Assembly: GCA_945870865.1 (NCBI GenBank)
Contig: CAMBTO010000021.1
Location: forward strand, 1 to 32,058
Reading direction: 5' to 3'
Length of the DNA stretch: 32,058 nucleotides
DNA from: Klebsiella pneumoniae
GTDB taxonomy: Bacteria; Pseudomonadota; Gammaproteobacteria; Eutrophobiales; Eutrophobiaceae
Positions 12,727 through 23,597 of the stretch are shown here, one piece after another (within the stretch, counting starts at the first letter, position 1; every line of letters starts with the position of its first letter). A model generated the notes under the pieces. It was not told where the DNA came from. It saw only the letters and a program-made list of their open reading frames with translations, and ran no database searches. The translations under genes and the position numbers were made by a program.

Positions 12727-12806
12727 CGTCATTCCCGCGCAGGCGGGAATCCAGTCGCTTATTCTATCTGGATTCCGGGTCCGGCATACGCCGTCCCGGA
12801 ATGACG
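12727..12806. repeat. Inverted-repeat element, copy A
   Basis: An 80-bp element bounded by inverted CGTCATTCC / GGAATGACG. The left half forms a hairpin (ATTCCCGC-GCAG-GCGGGAAT); the right half starts CTGGATTCCGGG and folds on CCCGGAAT. It is similar to copy C at 15086 and half-copy B at 14991. Elements of this look (ATTCCCGC...GCGGGAAT) are common short intergenic repeats in proteobacteria. It lies upstream of the rhodanese gene. Confidence 0.8.
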
Positions 12807-12881
12807 ACGGCTTTTCTTTTCCTCCCACCGGATTACCTCATGCGAGGTGACCTCTTTATATGACAACAGACTGAATCTGTA

Positions 12882-14876: not shown

Positions 14877-15085
14877 AAGCAGGCAGATATTTTCCGTCAG
14901 TCAGGCTGATACCAGCGCTGACAATAACATTATAAGGTGGCGGATGAAAAGGGCTGCGATGTCGCATAAAGGTGCGGCCCGATACATTTACTGGATTCCG
15001 GGCTCGGCTTGCGCCGCCCCGGAATGACGGGATGATTACCACGACACCTGCTAATTCATATCGTCATGTGATATCTCCCAGGGAA
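14877..15085. other. Intergenic region upstream of the AbgT-family gene
   Basis: No gene seen. This is the upstream region of the minus-strand transporter; it holds half-copy B of the inverted-repeat element and leads into full copy C. The whole gene-free gap runs from 14877 to 15238. Confidence 0.5.
14991..15029. repeat. Inverted-repeat element, half-copy B
   Basis: Only the right half of the element (CTGGATTCCGGG ... GGAATGACG) is present; the left ATTCCCGC hairpin is missing. It sits 56 bases before full copy C in the same orientation. Confidence 0.75.
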
Positions 15086-15193
15086 CGTCATTCCCGCGCA
15101 GGCGGGAATCCAGTCATCAAATATCCATCCTTATATAACGACGCTTGAATTCATCTGGATTCCGGGCCCGGCTTACGCCGCCCCGGAATGACG
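15086..15193. repeat. Inverted-repeat element, copy C
   Basis: A 108-bp full copy with the same CGTCATTCC / GGAATGACG ends and the same two hairpin halves as copy A. The variable centre between the halves is longer than in copy A. It is located downstream of the DUF1028 gene and upstream of the AbgT-family gene, so its hairpins could also act as a terminator. Confidence 0.8.
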
Positions 15194-15238
15194 ACGACAT
15201 TTATTCCGTGCACAAACCCGAGAATGCTGAGGAGATTA

Positions 15239-16330
15239 TTATCGGGTAACCCGATTAACCTCCATCAACTGCTTGCTGATCTGCGCGGCCTTGCCCGCCT
15301 CTTCCAGCTTCAGCCATAACTGTTTTACGGTGCGCTGATCTACATAACCCTTGACCGGTGTACCCCAGCCCTGTGCCGTACGGAAGCTGTCCACCGCTGC
15401 AATCGCCTCGGCGTCGTAGATACGCAGCGACGGATCCTGCAAGGAGAGCTCCCGGTTATCGGCCTTGAAAAACCCGAGCGCGTGCAGCATGACCTTCAAC
15501 TGGACGATGTCGTTGCCCTGAAACTGGCTGAGCGTGCGGAACCCGAGCGTCTCGGCCAGGGTGTTATAGATACGGCGTAACTCGGCAACCGGTTCCGGGT
15601 TCTCGCACACGTTGATATCAACGCTGATCTGATCAGGACGACGTGAGGTACCGGGGCGCGGGTCGGCGACCAGCACGGCGGCGGACTGGGTCTCGCCGTG
15701 ACGGCCATCACCGCCGAGCGCCTGTCCGGCGGCTATCGCCTCGATCATGCGATCGGCCAGATGCCGATTCTTGCCTGCACTTTTCTCAAAGGTATCAGCG
15801 ACGGCATCAACGACCTCGGGTCCGACCAGCGAATTACCCTGTACGGCATAACTGAACCCGTTGCGCACCTTGACCCAGTCGCCCTGTGCCTCCGAGCCGT
15901 ATTGCTGTTTACCGGTCCATTGTGCGGTCCGGCCCTGCATATCAATCACACCGACCTGCCGGTTTTCCCGGCCTTCATCGGCGGCCACAACACGGTCGAG
16001 CGCCTCCTGGGCGGACAGCCCCTGCTCCAGCAGGTCCAGAACGTCATTACCGTATTCGATCCGGGTACCACCCTGGGTCGCCACCGCACCCACTCCAGGC
16101 CGGGTCCAGGGCACGGCATTGCCTACACACGGTCGGCGTGTGGTCACGGTTACGCCGGACTCGCCGGTCAAGGGGTCAATGGCCACAATAGAAAAGGTAT
16201 GGAATTCGATCTCAGCACCGGAACCCCAGCCCACCGGTTCCTGGGCAGTAACAGGGGCACTCCCCAGAACTAGGACACTAACGACCAGGGTATGCAACAA
16301 AGCAGGGCGAACTTTTATAAACAACGGCAT
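15239..16330 (-). CDS. Exported DUF1028 protein with C-terminal extension
   Basis: A 363-aa protein. The start at 16330 is chosen for its AAGGATATTGCC ribosome site and because a signal peptide (ending near APVTAQE) begins there; the frame stays open to 16504 without support. The mature N-terminal part is DUF1028, an Ntn-hydrolase-like family: FSIVAIDPLTGESGVTVTT, then VGNAVPWTRPGVGAVATQG, RQVGVIDMQGRTAQWTG and QGNSLVGPEVVDAVADTFE. The last 90 or so residues (VQLKVMLHALGFF... VKGYVDQRTVKQLW) look like a peptidoglycan-binding-like module. A role in cell-wall or peptide turnover is inferred; no activity is established for this family. Confidence 0.85.
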   Translation of the reverse strand: MPLFIKVRPALLHTLVVSVLVLGSAPVTAQEPVGWGSGAEIEFHTFSIVAIDPLTGESGVTVTTRRPCVGNAVPWTRPGVGAVATQGGTRIEYGNDVLDLLEQGLSAQEALDRVVAADEGRENRQVGVIDMQGRTAQWTGKQQYGSEAQGDWVKVRNGFSYAVQGNSLVGPEVVDAVADTFEKSAGKNRHLADRMIEAIAAGQALGGDGRHGETQSAAVLVADPRPGTSRRPDQISVDINVCENPEPVAELRRIYNTLAETLGFRTLSQFQGNDIVQLKVMLHALGFFKADNRELSLQDPSLRIYDAEAIAAVDSFRTAQGWGTPVKGYVDQRTVKQLWLKLEEAGKAAQISKQLMEVNRVTR

Positions 16331-16570
16331 GGCAATATCCTTAAGCGTAGGTGATAACGAAGTCTTGCATTTACCAGCCGTATCTTGCAAGGCTAAAAGC
16401 GCATCAGCATACTGATTTTTATATGATTTCATCCCGACAACATGCAACATAATGGTGCATATGGATCGTCCTGATAAAACAGGATATTCTGACTGAAGGT
16501 TCATGTCATATTGTCAAAATTATGACTGACTGCAGTTGTACTTTCTTTTGACTGTACCAGGGGTAAGTCT

Positions 16571-17008
16571 ATGAACCGTACATTAATTTTGCTGGTACTC
16601 GCCGTTATCGTCTTGTCATGGAACTTTGTCTTTACCGACAAACAGGTCGGCCTGACAGACGAGGCGAGAATATTACAGGGCCTCAGCACAGCGCTGCCCT
16701 ATAAAACCGCCATCGCAGATTACTGGAAAAAGAACGGTGTATTGCCTGCCGAGGTCGATTGGCAAAAGTCCGGCACGGCCATCACTCCGGATCTCAGCCA
16801 GGCCATCGTCGCCTCGATCGACGTCGGCGTCGACGGCCCGGGCGTCATCAGTGTGCACTACACTGCCAGGACTGGACTGGAGGCCCCTGAACGAATTGCG
16901 GGTAAACAGATCAACCTTATACCGGCTATCGTAAATGCCCGTGTCGAATGGACCTGCAAAGGCACACTGGAACCCACCCTGCTCCCAAAGAATTGCACCG
17001 CGCTCTAG
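16571..17008 (+). CDS. Membrane-anchored pilin-like protein
   Basis: A 145-aa protein with a single N-terminal membrane segment (residues 4-21) and a globular part resembling the C-terminal half of type IV pilins. It has a helix with ALPYKTAIADYWKKNGVLP, a beta part with GVISVHYTAR, and a C-terminal WTC...LPKNC pair (C129, C142) that would form the pilin disulfide loop. The prepilin peptidase site (glycine, then phenylalanine and glutamate at +5) is missing, so it is probably not processed or assembled as a normal pilin. It has a GGGG site eight bases before the ATG. The function is unknown; it may be a pilin-fold membrane protein. Confidence 0.7.
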   Translation: MNRTLILLVLAVIVLSWNFVFTDKQVGLTDEARILQGLSTALPYKTAIADYWKKNGVLPAEVDWQKSGTAITPDLSQAIVASIDVGVDGPGVISVHYTARTGLEAPERIAGKQINLIPAIVNARVEWTCKGTLEPTLLPKNCTAL

Positions 17009-17028
17009 AGATCACTGTACCGTATTCT

Positions 17029-17064
17029 GTGGGATCAGCCATCCGGGTATAATAGTTCAAGACC
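17029..17064 (-). repeat. Solo reversed end of the 112-bp MITE-like element
   Basis: GTGGGATCAGCC and the following bases to GTTCAAGACC match, with a few changes, the reverse complement of the right end of the 112-bp elements. The inner part of the element is absent here. It lies 50 bases before copy 1 and 20 bases after the pilin-like gene. Confidence 0.65.
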
Positions 17065-17113
17065 AACTGCACAGCGGTATAACTGATACTTCCAGTTTCG
17101 CGTAATGTCTGGA

Positions 17114-17225
17114 ATCAGCCGTCTGGCTATAATTGTGAAAGACCGTTAGCCGCAGGGATGCGGCGCTCGAGCGTACATGGATGTATTCACAGCGTGTCTT
17201 GAACGATTATAGCCAGACGGCTGAT
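17114..17225 (+). repeat. MITE-like 112-bp palindromic element, copy 1
   Basis: It has perfect 20-bp inverted ends (17114-17133 and 17206-17225, beginning ATCAGCCGTCTGG). The centre holds small palindromes: CCGCAGGGATGCGG, GCTCGAGC and GTACATGGATGTA. Similarity to copy 2 continues weakly to about 17243 (CCCACAG and AATTTGA-like bases). The centre with GAGCGTACATGGATGTATTCACAGCG resembles short palindromic repeats common in gammaproteobacteria. Confidence 0.88.
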
Positions 17226-17354
17226 CCCACAGCAAATTGATAACAGACCTTTTCAACCAGTCCCCTGCCATCGATTTGCACAATTTAATCACTGGACGAT
17301 AATGGACAGGGTTGGGATACTTAGAAGTTGAAATCACTTTTTATCGGGGGAGTA

Positions 17355-19484
17355 ATGAAGGTCTGGGGTAATCGCTTGTGCATCCTAATCGCTACCGGGA
17401 TGTTACTGCCAGGTATGGTCCAGTCTCAACCGCAAGCGGAACAGACTACAGCGACTGGGCCCACAACATCCGCCGATGAGGTGATGAGTTATGAAGCCGG
17501 GTTCTTCAGTCGTTACCAGCCTCGCAATGCGCTCGAGATGGTACGCCAGGTACCGGGATTTCTGCTGGATGACGGTGAAGACAACCGTGGATTCGGTGCG
17601 GCTGCCGGCAATGTGCTGATCAACGGCCGGCGCCCGAGTGCAAAGCAGAATACCCCTTCCGCATTTCTGACACGAATCTCTGCCGGTCAGGTCGAACGTA
17701 TTGAACTGATCCGCAACCAGGTCCGTGGTATAGATATGCTGGGTCATTCTGCGCTGGTCAATATCATCCTGTATGGCGATATGCCAGCCAGGGTCCGTTA
17801 TGAAACATCGCTGCGGCACAATAACCGTGGCCCGATCAAACCCACTGTTGATATCTCACTGACCGACCGTTGGGGTGATATCGACTATACCGCCGGATTT
17901 TACAGTGAGCGTGAGGCGAATGGTGAAACCGGTGATCGCATCCTGTATGACGATATGGGTAACGTGGTTGAAACCAGTGATACCGGCCAGAAATCTACCG
18001 GTATTGAGGTCGTCGGGACGCTGAGTGGCTCTACCTGGATAGGTGAAAGCCTGATCAATGCAAACGGCAAGATCAGCTCGGATTCGCGTAACCCCAGACA
18101 ACATATCGAGATTAGTCCGCAGAGCCTTCCCGGGGGCCTGCGTCAGGAGTTCATTGAGGATGAACTCGTCATCAAGGGTATGGAGGTTGGCACCGATGTC
18201 GTGCGCAATCTGAACGAAGACCTGCTCGGCAAGGCGATATTCCTGTTGTATATGGAAAAAATTCCGAAGACCTCCACACGCCGGCTGGTCAATACGTCTG
18301 GTATCGAGACCTTGCTGCGCATTGCCGATACCGATACAGACACCACCGAAGGTATCGCCCGTCTTGAATTCAACTGGTCGGGTATGGAAGGTCATGCCAT
18401 CCAGCTGAATATGGAAAGTGCCTACAATGAAGTCGATGGCAGTCTGCTTCAGACTGATAATCGTGGCACCGGTCCGACCGTCATCAACGTACCCGGCGCG
18501 AATTCTCGCGTCGATGAGGTCCGCTGGGACCTGCAATTAAAAGACAACTGGTCGCTGGGTAACCTGGAGTTTGATTACGGACTCGGGGCCGAATTCTCGA
18601 CCATCTCCCAGACCGGCGATAGCGAACAGGAACGCAGTTTCCGCTTTCTCAAACCGATGGCCAGTGTGATCTGGTCGGCGGGACAAGGACAACGCCTCCG
18701 TTTCACACTGGAGCGCGAGGTCGCCCAGCTGAACTTCAATGATTTTATCAGTGCGACCGTCTTTGAAGACGATGACATTGTGCTCGGTAACCCGGATTTG
18801 CATCCGGATGCCACCTGGGTGACCAGCCTCGGTTATGAAAAACGCTACGGTAAGATTGGTGTCTTCAAGGTGACGGCCTATCACCACTGGATCGATGACG
18901 TGCTGGATCTGTTGCCACTGACGGCCACCAATGCGGTACCCGGTAATATCGGCAATGGTCGCCGCTGGGGCGTGGATTTCGAGAACTCCATTCCGCTCGA
19001 ATGGCTGGGACTGACCGGCTCAAAACTGAGCCTCACCGCGCGCTGGCAGGACTCCACTGTCGTTGATCCTGTGACCGGTGATAACCGTGTGCTGTCGGGG
19101 CAAGGCGGCAACACCGCCTATCGCAGCCTGATGACGGGCAACCGCAATATGCACTATTTCCTGCGACTGGACTTCCGTCAGGATCTTGAAAGCTCGAAGG
19201 TCGCCTGGGGCTGGACTGCCGCAGAGCGCGATACACGTCTGTTGTTCAAGGTCGATGAGCTGGATACCTACGATGAAGATGTTGCGGTCGATGCGTTTGT
19301 CGAAACAACCCGCTGGTGGGGGGTGAAACTGCGCGTACTCGGCGAGAATCTGCTCGACTTCAAGGAATGGCGTGACCGCACCGTGTTTGAGGGTGAACGT
19401 GATCTGTCACCGATTGACTTCCGGGAGACCCGCAACCGCTACAATGGCCGCAAGATCACCTTGTCGGTCAGTGGCAGTTTCTGA
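17355..19484 (+). CDS. TonB-dependent receptor, unknown substrate
   Basis: A 709-aa outer-membrane protein. The start at 17355 is supported by GGGGGAGTA just before the ATG; a TTG start at 17328 is also open but less likely. The signal peptide covers about 24 residues (to MVQSQ). The plug domain is visible as EMVRQVPGFLLDDG, NVLINGRRPSAK and QVERIELIRNQVRGIDM, followed by a long beta-barrel ending in KITLSVSGSF with its terminal phenylalanine. No classical TonB box is obvious. It belongs to a branch with a shortened plug, unlike the two larger receptors at 20802 and 28408. The nuclease gene begins 22 bases after its stop, so the two are cotranscribed; both are bracketed by the 112-bp elements. 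Confidence 0.88.
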   Translation: MKVWGNRLCILIATGMLLPGMVQSQPQAEQTTATGPTTSADEVMSYEAGFFSRYQPRNALEMVRQVPGFLLDDGEDNRGFGAAAGNVLINGRRPSAKQNTPSAFLTRISAGQVERIELIRNQVRGIDMLGHSALVNIILYGDMPARVRYETSLRHNNRGPIKPTVDISLTDRWGDIDYTAGFYSEREANGETGDRILYDDMGNVVETSDTGQKSTGIEVVGTLSGSTWIGESLINANGKISSDSRNPRQHIEISPQSLPGGLRQEFIEDELVIKGMEVGTDVVRNLNEDLLGKAIFLLYMEKIPKTSTRRLVNTSGIETLLRIADTDTDTTEGIARLEFNWSGMEGHAIQLNMESAYNEVDGSLLQTDNRGTGPTVINVPGANSRVDEVRWDLQLKDNWSLGNLEFDYGLGAEFSTISQTGDSEQERSFRFLKPMASVIWSAGQGQRLRFTLEREVAQLNFNDFISATVFEDDDIVLGNPDLHPDATWVTSLGYEKRYGKIGVFKVTAYHHWIDDVLDLLPLTATNAVPGNIGNGRRWGVDFENSIPLEWLGLTGSKLSLTARWQDSTVVDPVTGDNRVLSGQGGNTAYRSLMTGNRNMHYFLRLDFRQDLESSKVAWGWTAAERDTRLLFKVDELDTYDEDVAVDAFVETTRWWGVKLRVLGENLLDFKEWRDRTVFEGERDLSPIDFRETRNRYNGRKITLSVSGSF

Positions 19485-19506
19485 TCTACCCTGATTCAGG
19501 AAAAGC

Positions 19507-20121
19507 ATGCGTCCGGGTAAGCTGCTGAAACTGATCAAAAGCCGATCGCTGGGGTCCACACTGTTGCTGCTGGGGGCCTTAAGTGCCTGGCAGTATTTTG
19601 ACCAGGGCCGGGTCAGTTGGCACGAGGACCTCGTCAGCGAACTTCTGGGTGATGCCCGTCCCGCTCGCCCGCGCAACACAACAACACCCTCTGCGTTACC
19701 ACCGCCGGGCCAGCAACTGTCCGGCACAGTCGACAGCGTTACCGACGGCGATACCTTACGACTGGTCACCCGGGATTTGGATGAATACAAGATACGCCTG
19801 TACGGCATTGATGCACCCGAACGCGACCAGCCCCACGGCGACACCGCCTCGCTGGCACTGGATGCACTGGTAGACGATCGGGAGGTCATCGTCATGGTGC
19901 AAGACATCGATGGCTACGGACGTCTGGTCAGCACCGTTTATCTCGAAGGCACCAATATCAATGTCGCAATGGTGCGTGAAGGTCATGCGTGGTGGTACAA
20001 GTATTTTGCCAAATCAGACAACACCCTGGCCGAGGCAGAAACCGCCGCCCGTGCGGCACGAGCAGGTCTGTGGGCAAGGACAAAGCCGGTGGCACCGTGG
20101 GACTGGCGACGACGGCACTAA
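19507..20121 (+). CDS. Membrane-anchored staphylococcal-nuclease-like (thermonuclease) protein
   Basis: A 204-aa protein with an uncleaved or cleaved N-terminal hydrophobic segment (residues 16-28), a linker rich in proline and arginine, and an SNase domain (about 70-195). Calcium and catalytic residues of the family are present: DGDT (79-83 region), R97 and D102/E105 in IRLYGIDAPERDQP, and R139 in DGYGRLV. It should cut DNA or RNA outside the cytoplasm. AGGAAAA lies five bases before the ATG. Being cotranscribed with a TonB-dependent receptor suggests a joint nutrient role, for example freeing and importing phosphate or nucleotides; that link is inference. Confidence 0.9.
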   Translation: MRPGKLLKLIKSRSLGSTLLLLGALSAWQYFDQGRVSWHEDLVSELLGDARPARPRNTTTPSALPPPGQQLSGTVDSVTDGDTLRLVTRDLDEYKIRLYGIDAPERDQPHGDTASLALDALVDDREVIVMVQDIDGYGRLVSTVYLEGTNINVAMVREGHAWWYKYFAKSDNTLAEAETAARAARAGLWARTKPVAPWDWRRRH

Positions 20122-20169
20122 TACCGGAGCTATTTAAAAGAGCTGTTCCGGATGCCAATGAAGATTGGT

Positions 20170-20281
20170 ATCAGCCCTCTGGCTATGATTGTGAAAGACC
20201 GTTAGCCGCATGGATGCGGCGCTCGAGCGTACATGGATGTATTCACAGCGTGTCTTGAACGATTATAGCCAGATGGCTGAT
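20170..20281 (+). repeat. MITE-like 112-bp palindromic element, copy 2
   Basis: The same length and orientation as copy 1, with four base substitutions by my count (two in the left end, one in the centre, one in the right end). The flanking similarity continues for about 18 bases on the right (CCCACAGGAATTTGAG). It sits between the nuclease gene and the converging small gene at 20307, so it may also serve as a terminator. Confidence 0.88.
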
Positions 20282-20306
20282 CCCACAGGAATTTGAGAAC
20301 AGTGAT

Positions 20307-20573
20307 TTAAAACCGTCTGGATTTCTTCAGTGCCGGATTGACCTTGTCGAGCTCTGCCTGTACCTGCTCACGTGAATGACGGTAGACAATTTCCCTGCCC
20401 ATTACCGTGCCAGCATAGGCCTGTCCATTCCGTGTCGGTGTCAGTTCACATTGCACGCTGTGCACACCCGTGCCAATGACCACATCGATCCGGTCAGGCC
20501 GTTTATGCAGTACGACCACCTGCATCGATTGTCCACTCTCGGTCACTTCTACGGTAATCGTGTCATTGCTCAT
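20307..20573 (-). CDS. Small conserved-looking protein of unknown function
   Basis: An 88-aa basic, soluble protein without signal peptide or membrane segment. I do not recognise its family. It begins SNDTITVEVTESGQSMQVVVLHKRPDRIDVVIGTG, which suggests a beta-rich N-terminal half, followed by a basic helix (YRHSREQVQAELDKVNP) and a KKSRRF tail that could touch nucleic acid. A GGGGAG ribosome site seven bases before the ATG and coding-like composition support it as a real gene. It lies between copy 2 of the 112-bp element and the terminator of the next receptor gene. Confidence 0.65.
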   Translation of the reverse strand: MSNDTITVEVTESGQSMQVVVLHKRPDRIDVVIGTGVHSVQCELTPTRNGQAYAGTVMGREIVYRHSREQVQAELDKVNPALKKSRRF

Positions 20574-20688
20574 GGCTCAACTCCCCTGGACTGGCGATAG
20601 ATGATTCAGCATAGAGTATCACGCGGAAATTGTCTGGAATTATTCAGCTGGCCAACGGCGGTGTTGTGCCTGTGCCTGGACGGCGGAC

Positions 20689-20714
20689 AAAAAAATAGCC
20701 CTGTCACCAGGGCT
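20689..20714 (-). terminator. Rho-independent terminator for the 931-aa receptor gene
   Basis: A 7-bp stem, AGCCCTG / CAGGGCT (20697-20714), with a TCAC loop. Read on the minus strand it is followed by an ATTTTTTT run. A T-run also follows on the plus strand, so it may work both ways. Confidence 0.8.
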
Positions 20715-20762
20715 GAATTTTTTCCATGCTGCCGGGAGATGGCCCGGCGAGGACAGTCAGCC

Positions 20763-20789
20763 TACCGGCACCCGAAACGGGTGCCGGTA
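20763..20789 (-). terminator. Stem-loop just after the 931-aa receptor gene
   Basis: A perfect 12-bp stem, TACCGGCACCCG / CGGGTGCCGGTA, with a three-base loop, 13 bases beyond the stop codon on the minus strand. There is no T-run, so it may be an mRNA 3'-end stabiliser ahead of the true terminator at 20689. Confidence 0.6.
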
Positions 20790-20801
20790 GACATACTGTT
20801 T

Positions 20802-23597
20802 CTAGTTATAGTTGTACTGGAACTGCACGCCGTAGCTGAACCAGTTACGCGGGCTCAGTGCATTGTCTACACGGCCTGCCGGATCGACATCGAACTCGGG
20901 GTAGTATTTCATACCCGTCTCAAGGATATTGCGGCCCCATAACATCACGCTCCAGGTCTCATCAATATCGCCAAGGCCGACGTTCAGGTTCGCGATAACA
21001 CCGGAGTCATACTTGATGACCTCGTCAAATGCCTCGACGTTCCAGATATAGCCGTCGCGGAAGGTCGTGGTTGAATTGAACATGTATTTGTAGCGATCGC
21101 CAATCGGATACCACCAGTCAACGTTGACTACAAACTTCCAGTCCGGTGTACGCGGGGCCTTGTAACCGCTGCGGTCGATCAGGCCTTCACCGGAAGTATT
21201 GCCAAACTGGGCTATCGATTCCGCAGTGGAGATACACGGCCCGGTGGCAGCTGCCTCGAATTCAGCATCCGTACAACCCGCACCCTTGAAACTGACCATC
21301 ACGCCGTCCATCAGTGCGCCGTTAATACCCAATGTCAGCCTGTCCGTCGCGGCCCAGCGACCATCAAACTCAATACCACGCGTGCGCTGCTCGCCGGCAT
21401 TGGTCGAGAAACTGGACTGCGTACTCAGCCCAGTCGGTACCGTGGTGGCAATCTGCAGGTCAGAAATCGTGACCTGGAATAGGGTGATATTGTAGTTGGC
21501 CGCCCCATCGAGCAAACTTCCCTTCGCACCAAGTTCGAAGTTCTCCGCATTTTCAGCCAGTAGCGGGAAGGTCTCAGGTGGGTTCGGTAAGGAACCGCTG
21601 GAAATATCGGCGCCTCCGCCCTTGAACGCACGTGCCCATTTAGCATACACAGACAGGTCATCTGAGAAGCGGTAACGCAGCGTAACCTGGGGATCCAGAC
21701 TGTCGTCGCGGTATTCATTCAGATATGGGCCGGTATCGTTGCTGTTGTTCTGCCCACGGGTGGCAACGGTAATCGGACCAATATCGACTGGTGAGAGTGT
21801 ATCCCACGCATCCGGTACGCCCCGGCTCGCCGACGGGGAGTTATAGAGGGAGGTCCAGTATCCGGCACGATAGTTACCGCACATGAACTGATTGGGACCT
21901 GCCACGCTGCAATCGACTATCTGGCTGGCAAGATTCCGCGGACCACGGGGAGTCAAACCGGCACAAGGTTGACCGGCCTGACCAAAAACGGCCGTGTCCC
22001 AGTTCGCAAACACGTTGCAATTATCTGCAGGTGATTGATGACCATTCGCCATCGCCGTGGCTGGATTGCCGTCCCCATCATTGGTAAACGGGTTGACATT
22101 AAAGATAAACGTTGAGGCCAGACCGAGGATATAGGAATCCTTTTTAATATCGGTATAACGTGCACCGACATCGAGTGAGGCCTTCTCGGTAAAGTTCCAG
22201 GTCAATGAGGCAAATGCACTCTTCCAGGTCGTGTCCTGCCAGCTTTCGTGGAACCGCATCGGCTGACGCAGGTTCGCGCGCAGCGACATGGTCTGGTATT
22301 TCAGATTGTTAAGATTTCCAAGATCGAGGTCCTCATACTGATAGAACACGCCGGTCTCCCACTCAAACTTGCCACCGCGTGGGGACAGGAATCGGAACTC
22401 CTGGCTGAACATGTCAAAGATTTCGCCACGGTGCTGCAGGTTGGTCGGTATCGGTGAACTGGAATTGTCAAAGTTGGAGGAGCGCTGGTAATCGACATAG
22501 GCGGTATTTGAGTCGATATTGATCTCGTTATCCATCTGGTAGTTCATACCGAGCCGATAGCTGTACGCATCCATATCGTCATGCGCATCGGGACGTTCAA
22601 ATACCTTTGGCCAGATGGTCGTAATATCAACGATACCCGCGTTATTGTCCTCCTGGTCTATACCGGCTATAGGCTTGAAGAACGGGGTCTGGCCCTCACG
22701 GATACCAATACGTTTGAACCCGTTCTCGCAATCCTCCGGAAATGCCAACACCTGTTTGGCGTCGGTAAATGTGGTCAATCCTGGTGTGGTGACTGCGCGC
22801 TCGGTCTGTGGGACGGTACCGGCAGTTCGGCAGACAGACATGCCATCTCCATCACGGCGACGACGTGAATATTCACCCTTCAAGGTAGCCTCAAAGTTTG
22901 AGGTCGGGCTCCACATCAGCGTTGCCCTTGCCGCCTTCTCATCGCTGTCCGGGAACATATCACCGGTTACGACATCGCGTAGATAACCACTCATCCTGTC
23001 GAGCTGGCCAGCAACCCGGATTCCCAACGTATCGGTTATCGGACCACCGATACCACCCTCAACACTCATGCGACCCCAGTTACCAAATTCGGAGGTCACA
23101 TCACCCTGCCATTCCTCGGTCGGTTTTTTCGAGATGATGCTGAATGCGCCGGCGGTGGCGTTCTGGCCAAAGGCGATTGGTTGCGGACCACGCAATACCT
23201 CGAGACGTTCCACATCGAGGAAGGCGCCCATGATCATTGAGGTACGGCCGTAATGCACGCCGTCAGAGAAGGTTGGTACGGCCTGCTCCAGACCAAGGTT
23301 ATTTCCGGTAGTACCCATGCCGCGAACTGCAATGTCCTGGTCCTGGGTGCGGATGTCGATTTCGACGCTGGGCGAGAACATCGAGACGTCCTCCATTGAG
23401 CGCAGACCCTGCGATGCCAGCGTCGCACCACTGAACGCTTCCAGCGATATCGGAACATCCTGAATGGACTGCTCACGGCGCTGGGCCGTGACGACTATCT
23501 CTTCAAGTACCTGGGCAGATACGTTAGATGAAATAATTACAGTGGATAATACGACAGCAGAAATGGCTACAGCTAATACACGCCTTTGAATCAACAT
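20802..23597 (-). CDS. Large TonB-dependent receptor (931 aa)
   Basis: An outer-membrane receptor with a signal peptide (to about residue 28, NVSAQ) and a TonB box (EEIVVTAQRREQS, 32-44). The plug domain shows DVPISLEAFSGATLASQG, DIAVRGMGTT and DVERLEVLRGPQPIAFGQNATAGAFSIISKKP. The large barrel ends with NWFSYGVQFQYNYN. At 931 aa it exceeds siderophore receptors, with long extracellular loops containing cysteine-bearing stretches (for example CNVFANW and GQPCAGLTP). The start has GGGGAGG upstream. It shares its opening and plug wording with the 979-aa receptor at 28408, so the two are likely paralogues. The substrate is unknown. A LysR gene lies 134 bases upstream on the same strand and could control it. 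Confidence 0.92.
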   Translation of the reverse strand: MLIQRRVLAVAISAVVLSTVIISSNVSAQVLEEIVVTAQRREQSIQDVPISLEAFSGATLASQGLRSMEDVSMFSPSVEIDIRTQDQDIAVRGMGTTGNNLGLEQAVPTFSDGVHYGRTSMIMGAFLDVERLEVLRGPQPIAFGQNATAGAFSIISKKPTEEWQGDVTSEFGNWGRMSVEGGIGGPITDTLGIRVAGQLDRMSGYLRDVVTGDMFPDSDEKAARATLMWSPTSNFEATLKGEYSRRRRDGDGMSVCRTAGTVPQTERAVTTPGLTTFTDAKQVLAFPEDCENGFKRIGIREGQTPFFKPIAGIDQEDNNAGIVDITTIWPKVFERPDAHDDMDAYSYRLGMNYQMDNEINIDSNTAYVDYQRSSNFDNSSSPIPTNLQHRGEIFDMFSQEFRFLSPRGGKFEWETGVFYQYEDLDLGNLNNLKYQTMSLRANLRQPMRFHESWQDTTWKSAFASLTWNFTEKASLDVGARYTDIKKDSYILGLASTFIFNVNPFTNDGDGNPATAMANGHQSPADNCNVFANWDTAVFGQAGQPCAGLTPRGPRNLASQIVDCSVAGPNQFMCGNYRAGYWTSLYNSPSASRGVPDAWDTLSPVDIGPITVATRGQNNSNDTGPYLNEYRDDSLDPQVTLRYRFSDDLSVYAKWARAFKGGGADISSGSLPNPPETFPLLAENAENFELGAKGSLLDGAANYNITLFQVTISDLQIATTVPTGLSTQSSFSTNAGEQRTRGIEFDGRWAATDRLTLGINGALMDGVMVSFKGAGCTDAEFEAAATGPCISTAESIAQFGNTSGEGLIDRSGYKAPRTPDWKFVVNVDWWYPIGDRYKYMFNSTTTFRDGYIWNVEAFDEVIKYDSGVIANLNVGLGDIDETWSVMLWGRNILETGMKYYPEFDVDPAGRVDNALSPRNWFSYGVQFQYNYN

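Follow-up and report, generated by a model that had tools for sequence, protein, structure and literature searches.

What are the two near-identical repeats that flank a receptor-like gene and a nuclease gene on contig CAMBTO010000021.1 (assembly GCA_945870865.1, filed under Klebsiella pneumoniae), and do they delimit a mobile unit or carry something of their own? We analysed the whole 32,058-nucleotide stretch of this contig (the window) together with its own genome (G000; 2.17 Mb in 97 contigs) and that of a sister species (G001). The repeats lie at 17114-17225 and 20170-20281, have the same length and the same direction (+) and differ at 4 of 112 positions, which by repeat comparison is exactly what the first-pass annotation of the sequence had counted. 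They are the inner part of palindromes of ~175-180 bp. We think it probable, from sequence, that these palindromes are non-autonomous elements resembling miniature inverted-repeat transposable elements (MITEs), and that they carry at their tip, as a putative dual CsrA-binding site, the module of YPAL/RU-2, a repeat of Yersinia.

A core with two GGA-loop hairpins

The conserved part of the element is a core of ~70 nt at the tip of the palindrome. One strand of this core forms two hairpins with CANGGANG loops and with 20 nt between the GGA motifs. Both hairpins fit the published RsmE/CsrA consensus (A/U)CANGGANG(U/A) (PMC6692469), and hairpin 2 in the window agrees at 11 of 12 positions with RUACARGGAUGU, the consensus obtained for CsrA by systematic evolution of ligands by exponential enrichment (SELEX; PMC7652899). 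A CsrA dimer bridges sites that are 10-63 nt apart, with an optimum above 18 (PMC7652899), a range into which the 20-nt gap falls. The RU-2/YPAL sequence of Y. pestis includes gcgccaaggatggcgcggctcgagcctacatggatgtatttacggcg, which is this core complete with its two CANGGANG motifs (PMC2759123 Table 1b). Both window copies fold as near-perfect palindromes, copy 1 at -68.7 kcal/mol (mean after shuffling -34.6, z = -11) and copy 2 at -61.9 kcal/mol (z = -7), and their likeness reaches 149 nt at 91% identity. Their parts, together with a reversed half-element beside copy 1, are as follows.

17077-17257 (approximate), + strand: copy 1, full palindromic element with degenerate inverted-repeat ends; bounds inferred from the family consensus and flank comparison
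17114-17225, + strand: copy 1, 112-bp inner repeat; repeat comparison
17135-17206, + strand: copy 1, conserved core module; match to model R1, 76 bits, E 3.1e-19
17149-17164, + strand: copy 1, hairpin 1, GCCGCA-GGGA-UGCGGC; fold, and covariation in other species
17153-17160, + strand: copy 1, hairpin 1 loop motif CAGGGATG
17174-17185, + strand: copy 1, hairpin 2, UACA-UGGA-UGUA; fold, and conservation among this genome's copies
17176-17183, + strand: copy 1, hairpin 2 loop motif CATGGATG
20133-20311 (approximate), + strand: copy 2, full palindromic element with degenerate ends; family consensus; the right end overlaps the stop of a convergent 88-aa frame
20170-20281, + strand: copy 2, 112-bp inner repeat; repeat comparison
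20191-20262, + strand: copy 2, conserved core module; match to model R1, 76.8 bits, E 1.7e-19
20205-20220, + strand: copy 2, hairpin 1, with CATGGATG at 20209-20216; fold
20230-20241, + strand: copy 2, hairpin 2, with CATGGATG at 20232-20239; fold
17005-17063, - strand: half-element, 3′ arm only, reversed; inverted-repeat pairs I1 and I2, read against the consensus

Contigs of GTDB genomes were scanned with a single pattern, GAGYSTACANGGAYGTANTYACRGCG, which covers the second hairpin and its flanks only and excludes the first hairpin; the statements on other species in this paragraph concern the matches listed from that scan. Those with an informative title belong to Gammaproteobacteria and include Marinobacter, Microbulbifer, Stenotrophomonas, Yersinia, Pectobacterium, methylotrophs, Rheinheimera and others. 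We retained 119 distinct other-species copies with enough upstream sequence for the first hairpin. A GGA loop was present there in 110 of the 119 (23 after shuffling) and the full CANGGANG motif in 87 (none after shuffling), GGA being the commonest trinucleotide in first-hairpin loops. The two GGA motifs are 23 nt from each other in 74 of 87 copies and 22-27 nt in the remainder. In alignment A4, which holds 66 listed copies curated to this first-hairpin type, C20, G23, A25 and G27 never change, A21 and G24 occur in 65 of 66 and the n positions vary; with the loop preserved, all four Watson-Crick forms occur at the stem pairs from 14-33 to 19-28. Columns 41 and 59 of A4 are perfectly coupled, C with G or G with A, which suggests that a G-A pair may replace a C-G pair below hairpin 2. 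Counted over the copies, GAGC-C occurs with AC-G-GCG (74) and GAGC-G with AC-A-GCG (45).

Long variants of the core (G000 contig C1; G001 contigs C16, C5 and C39) have an extra insert at hairpin 1 that bears a further CANGGANG hairpin, which is CCGUUACAGGGAUGUAACGG in three of them, and they contain other GGA motifs too. Genome G565 has ~six tandem units of ~227 bp, five of them with an intact core. This array (L267, G565:C1:94200-95650) is a possible multi-site CsrA RNA, as judged from its repeated motifs; another hairpin, GTAGGAGCGGCTTCAGCCGCGATAA, also recurs in its units.

A covariance model of the core matched 79 of 369 gammaproteobacterial genomes, in 71 of 272 genera, and in a phylum-wide draw of unspecified class make-up all 28 positives belonged to Gammaproteobacteria. 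At blastn sensitivity, which a diverged core could escape, the G000 core had no match in plasmids, phages or E. coli genomes. The CsrA protein of G000 itself is canonical. With the core and csrA presence lists matched by eye, csrA was found in 65 of 66 near-complete core-bearing genomes and in 215 of 248 others (p = 0.002, kinship ignored); without the quality filter the counts were 74 of 79 and 239 of 290 (p = 0.007, kinship again ignored).

If the core acts as its motifs suggest, RNA of the core strand would form a long stem capped by two short hairpins with CANGGANG loops, a landing site for one CsrA/RsmA dimer, and the long stem would shield the RNA ends. Dispersed copies would be transcribed mostly by read-through from flanking genes and would then bind CsrA. 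Acting in trans, the copies together would form a diffuse CsrA sponge, and their effect in cis would be to hold CsrA on transcripts. Transcription, CsrA binding and either effect are all predictions from motif and fold. A broader proposal is that a mobile superfamily, of which YPAL would be one branch, spread a two-site CsrA/RsmA-binding RNA module among the genomes of Gammaproteobacteria, its dozens of chromosomal copies making up a dispersed and evolvable CsrA sponge or network of cis tethers beside the CsrB/RsmZ genes; this we put forward tentatively, at slightly less than even confidence. In Gammaproteobacteria, CsrA/RsmA exerts global control over metabolism, biofilm and virulence, and the RNAs known to antagonise it are a small number of dedicated small RNAs (sRNAs). 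If an abundant repeat does bear a matched pair of its binding sites, the CsrA available in many genomes would depend on how far dozens of repeats are transcribed, which is a regulatory load so far uncounted, and YPAL, described in 2006-2007 with no protein partner in the literature consulted, would gain a specific and easily testable function.

Core and carrier are separable

G000 holds ~40 copies of the element, roughly half of them complete and half matching in the core only. Comparison of locus L009 (G000 C66) with G001 gave one pair of filled and empty sites. The empty site in G001 reads ...ACTGGTC TA GACACAAG... and the filled site reads ...GGTC TA[AATAACTGTTCCGAATT ... AATTCGGAACAGTTATT]TA GACAC..., from which we take the full element to be ~174 bp long, with ends in inverted repeat and a TA at each junction. 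The site lies in the palindrome GTCTAGAC, which either received the element or lost it precisely. Most copies show a recognisable form of the end consensus CTARATAACTGTTCC, which has 37 matches in G000 and 48 in G001 against 7 and 12 for a reversed control. Terminal inverted repeats (CTARATAACTGTTCC...), no coding capacity, many dispersed copies and a TA target-site duplication, the last seen at the one filled/empty pair, support the MITE-like nature that the first-pass annotation had proposed.

A TA duplication at CTAG recalls IS630 elements. An IS630-type transposase was rejected as a candidate on finding no DDE_3 gene in G000 or G001, and no pair of ends faces inward at insertion sequence (IS) distance in either genome. 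For a RAYT/Y1 transposase there is one 101-aa open frame in G000 and there are two matches in G001, with no link to the element shown. A transposase with matching ends, which the first-pass annotation had suggested looking for, was not seen in these searches.

The core can be present or absent at the tip of the palindrome. A 93-bp hairpin with the same ends and no core lies at G000 C1:104060-104152, and the orthologous site in G001 (L229) has a long core at the hairpin tip; the flanks of the two sites are 87-90% identical over ~2.7 kb. Other elements with the same ends enclose sequence of the repetitive extragenic palindromic (REP) type (GTCATGCCGGG...), and one is merely a 55-bp end-to-end hairpin. 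REP-type sequence also forms a second repeat family in the window, at 12727-12818, 14989-15041 and 15086-15205 (CGTCATTCCCGCGCAGGCGGGAATCCAG and CTGGATTCCGGG...CCCCGGAATGACG), and the same sequence occurs inside some MITE-ended elements (G000 C22:4526-4745 and C81:6572-6746).

The arms vary between copies yet remain complementary, with 97% pairing over 22 arm pairs in 29 copies. Over the whole structure, 135 cells are changed on both sides against 28.6 in shuffled data (0/500), and between nine orthologous element pairs of G000 and G001 we counted 16 changed arm pairs: in 7 both sides had changed and still paired, in 4 a single side had changed and pairing persisted, and 5 were unpaired; these counts are not of independent events, because the copies are related. 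Where arm pairs are imperfect, the core strand has G-U in 69 cases (39 in one column) and A-C in 1. That they are G-U rather than A-C points to folding of the core strand as a single strand.

Strand-specific G-U pairs are also compatible with a single-stranded DNA intermediate, and it is here that a different explanation has to be weighed: the palindrome may be purely selfish, its core hairpins being read as single-stranded DNA or as RNA by a mobilising enzyme, with a convergent resemblance to CsrA sites. The element is interspersed and mobile, shows no strand bias relative to genes and has a core separable from its carrier, all as this explanation would have it. We nevertheless consider it unlikely, though it deserves some weight. 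The mobilising enzyme was not identified in the searches made, and TA at the junctions is suggestive of a DDE enzyme that works on the ends, not on a hairpin. Moreover, the fixed letters of the core are exactly those that CsrA reads and the free letters those that it ignores, and presence of the core is associated with csrA.

Position beside genes raises another alternative. By counts made with a simple open reading frame caller, copies mostly adjoin gene 3′ ends, lying between convergent rather than divergent genes by 17:1 in G000 and 15:2 in G001. This placement, the very stable stem, the covarying arms and the reported transcription of YPAL with upstream genes (PMC2229807) would suit a generic structural element of 3′ ends, that is, a bidirectional RNA stem with a role in stabilisation, termination or processing, such as has been proposed for YPAL and ERIC, and with incidental GGA loops. 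However, the copies have no T-run or terminator-like site (neither window copy has the GC-rich stem-loop and T-run of an intrinsic terminator), and such an element leaves the fixed GGA loops, their fixed spacing and the added GGA hairpins of the long variants unexplained. We regard it as improbable. A consensus scan found no promoter inside the element.

Several observations weigh against CsrA binding as the function of the core. Conservation of hairpin 2 across species is not independent evidence, because the search pattern fixed that hairpin. Complementarity of the arms could be kept by template-switch repair or by exchange among copies. A sense-strand bias in 3′ untranslated regions (3′-UTRs) was tested against tandem neighbour genes and no strand preference was found (6:4, 5:3 and 23:29), so a plain sense 3′-UTR function is unsupported; no such preference would be required for an effect in trans, whatever the read-through transcript, or for a part played in mobilisation. 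The module is dispensable, since 290 of the 369 gammaproteobacterial genomes have no core match, and five core-bearing genomes, one of them 98% complete, lack a csrA match. Finally, the only catalogued transcript, Ysr224 of Rfam (RF02770), which overlaps the YPAL core in Y. similis (L081:7888-7994, 126.5 bits) and Pectobacterium (L095:638-745, 73.3 bits), is annotated opposite to the GGA-loop strand.

The genes between the copies

Two genes outside the element lie between the window copies.

17328-19484, + strand: outer-membrane beta-barrel (receptor-like) gene; PF14905 OMP_b-brl_3, 27.4 bits, cut-off 27
19507-20121, + strand: SNase-family nuclease gene; PF00565, 2.5e-23

The first-pass annotation had described a TonB-dependent receptor followed by an SNase-like nuclease. 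The nuclease assignment stands, whereas that of a TonB-dependent receptor is plausible and not demonstrated, because PF14905, the only domain match of the beta-barrel protein, scores just above its cut-off and no Plug domain was found in it. Paralogues of the receptor-like gene adjoin other element copies, as read from the flanks of L018 (G000 C18) and L025 (G000 C2), and the L018 element lies between two apparent tandem receptor paralogues.

It had also been suggested that the repeats could allow this gene pair to be excised or duplicated, or could mark a past composite insertion. Direct repeats that are 96% identical and spaced 3056 bp apart could in principle recombine. In G001, however, block 15236-21947 of the window aligns in one piece at 89.6% DNA identity, with both copies, the half-copy and the flanking genes in place and a copy spacing of 3048 bp. 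When 41 copies were placed at random, 1.1 same-strand neighbouring pairs within 3.1 kb were expected and at least one occurred in 69% of runs; another same-strand pair in G000 is 1.7 kb apart. Copies 1 and 2 each have their own ends, and a matching transposase was not found in G000 or G001. We conclude that the flanking of the two genes by repeats is a coincidence: on the sister-species block, the copy number and the chance spacing we reject a composite transposon or excisable module, a possibility to which we give only the very slightest credence. The first-pass annotation had held that placement after genes throughout the genome, as for an ordinary REP, together with the gene pair in relatives without the repeat, would speak against a mobile unit; the first half of this is what we observe. 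By BLAST, three other species of the genus had no element copy, nor any close copy of the nuclease.

The reversed solo end noticed beside copy 1 is present at 17027-17063, where it is 89% complementary to 17196-17232, and against the full family consensus it extends to the half-element of ~17005-17063. The stop TAG of a pilin-family gene (16571-17008) sits in the CTAG end (17005-17008) of this half-element, which may therefore have supplied it. The 88-aa frame at 20307-20573 (-) likewise terminates inside copy 2.

Relation to known repeats and RNAs

The closest counterpart is YPAL/RU-2, which has the same central core with both CANGGANG hairpins, is of similar length and is likewise palindromic, intergenic and mobile; the Y. 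similis copy (L081) aligns with RU-2. YPAL is 167-168 bp long, is thought to have been recently mobile and has targets with dyad symmetry (PMC2229807). The outer arms and ends differ by reading (CTARATAACTGTTCC... here, ttcagactgctgac at the start of RU-2), the junctions here are TA inside GTCTAGAC (at one site only) against reported YPAL duplications of 3-26 bp, and the host here is an unrelated gammaproteobacterium. Because the outer sequences differ, we class the element as sharing the YPAL core and not as YPAL itself. Our literature search found no paper linking YPAL and CsrA.

Membership of Ysr224 was rejected, with the window copies scoring 18-20 bits against a cut-off of 70, and the Rfam scan of the window gave nothing but this sub-threshold match and a chance miRNA match. 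Ysr224 corresponds to the antisense of the YPAL-type core, and its strand assignment may merit re-examination. ERIC, NEMIS/Correia and other bacterial MITEs are similarly short inverted-repeat sequences with no coding function, which lie near genes and fold as RNA; their sequences are different, and no CANGGANG twin hairpin was found reported for them in the literature consulted.

TwoAYGGAY (RF01731) is a dual GGA-hairpin RNA for which CsrA binding was proposed from sequence (PMC4333381), and its two hairpins with AYGGAY loops resemble those of the core. Identity with it was rejected, as its model had no match in G000 (E up to 10) or in eight core-bearing loci. The CsrB, CsrC and RsmX-Y-Z sRNAs share with the element multiple GGA hairpin loops for CsrA/RsmA dimers. 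The element differs from them in being a dispersed multi-copy repeat with two sites per copy and no recognised promoter or terminator, and its long variants and the tandem array are its nearest approach to these sRNAs.

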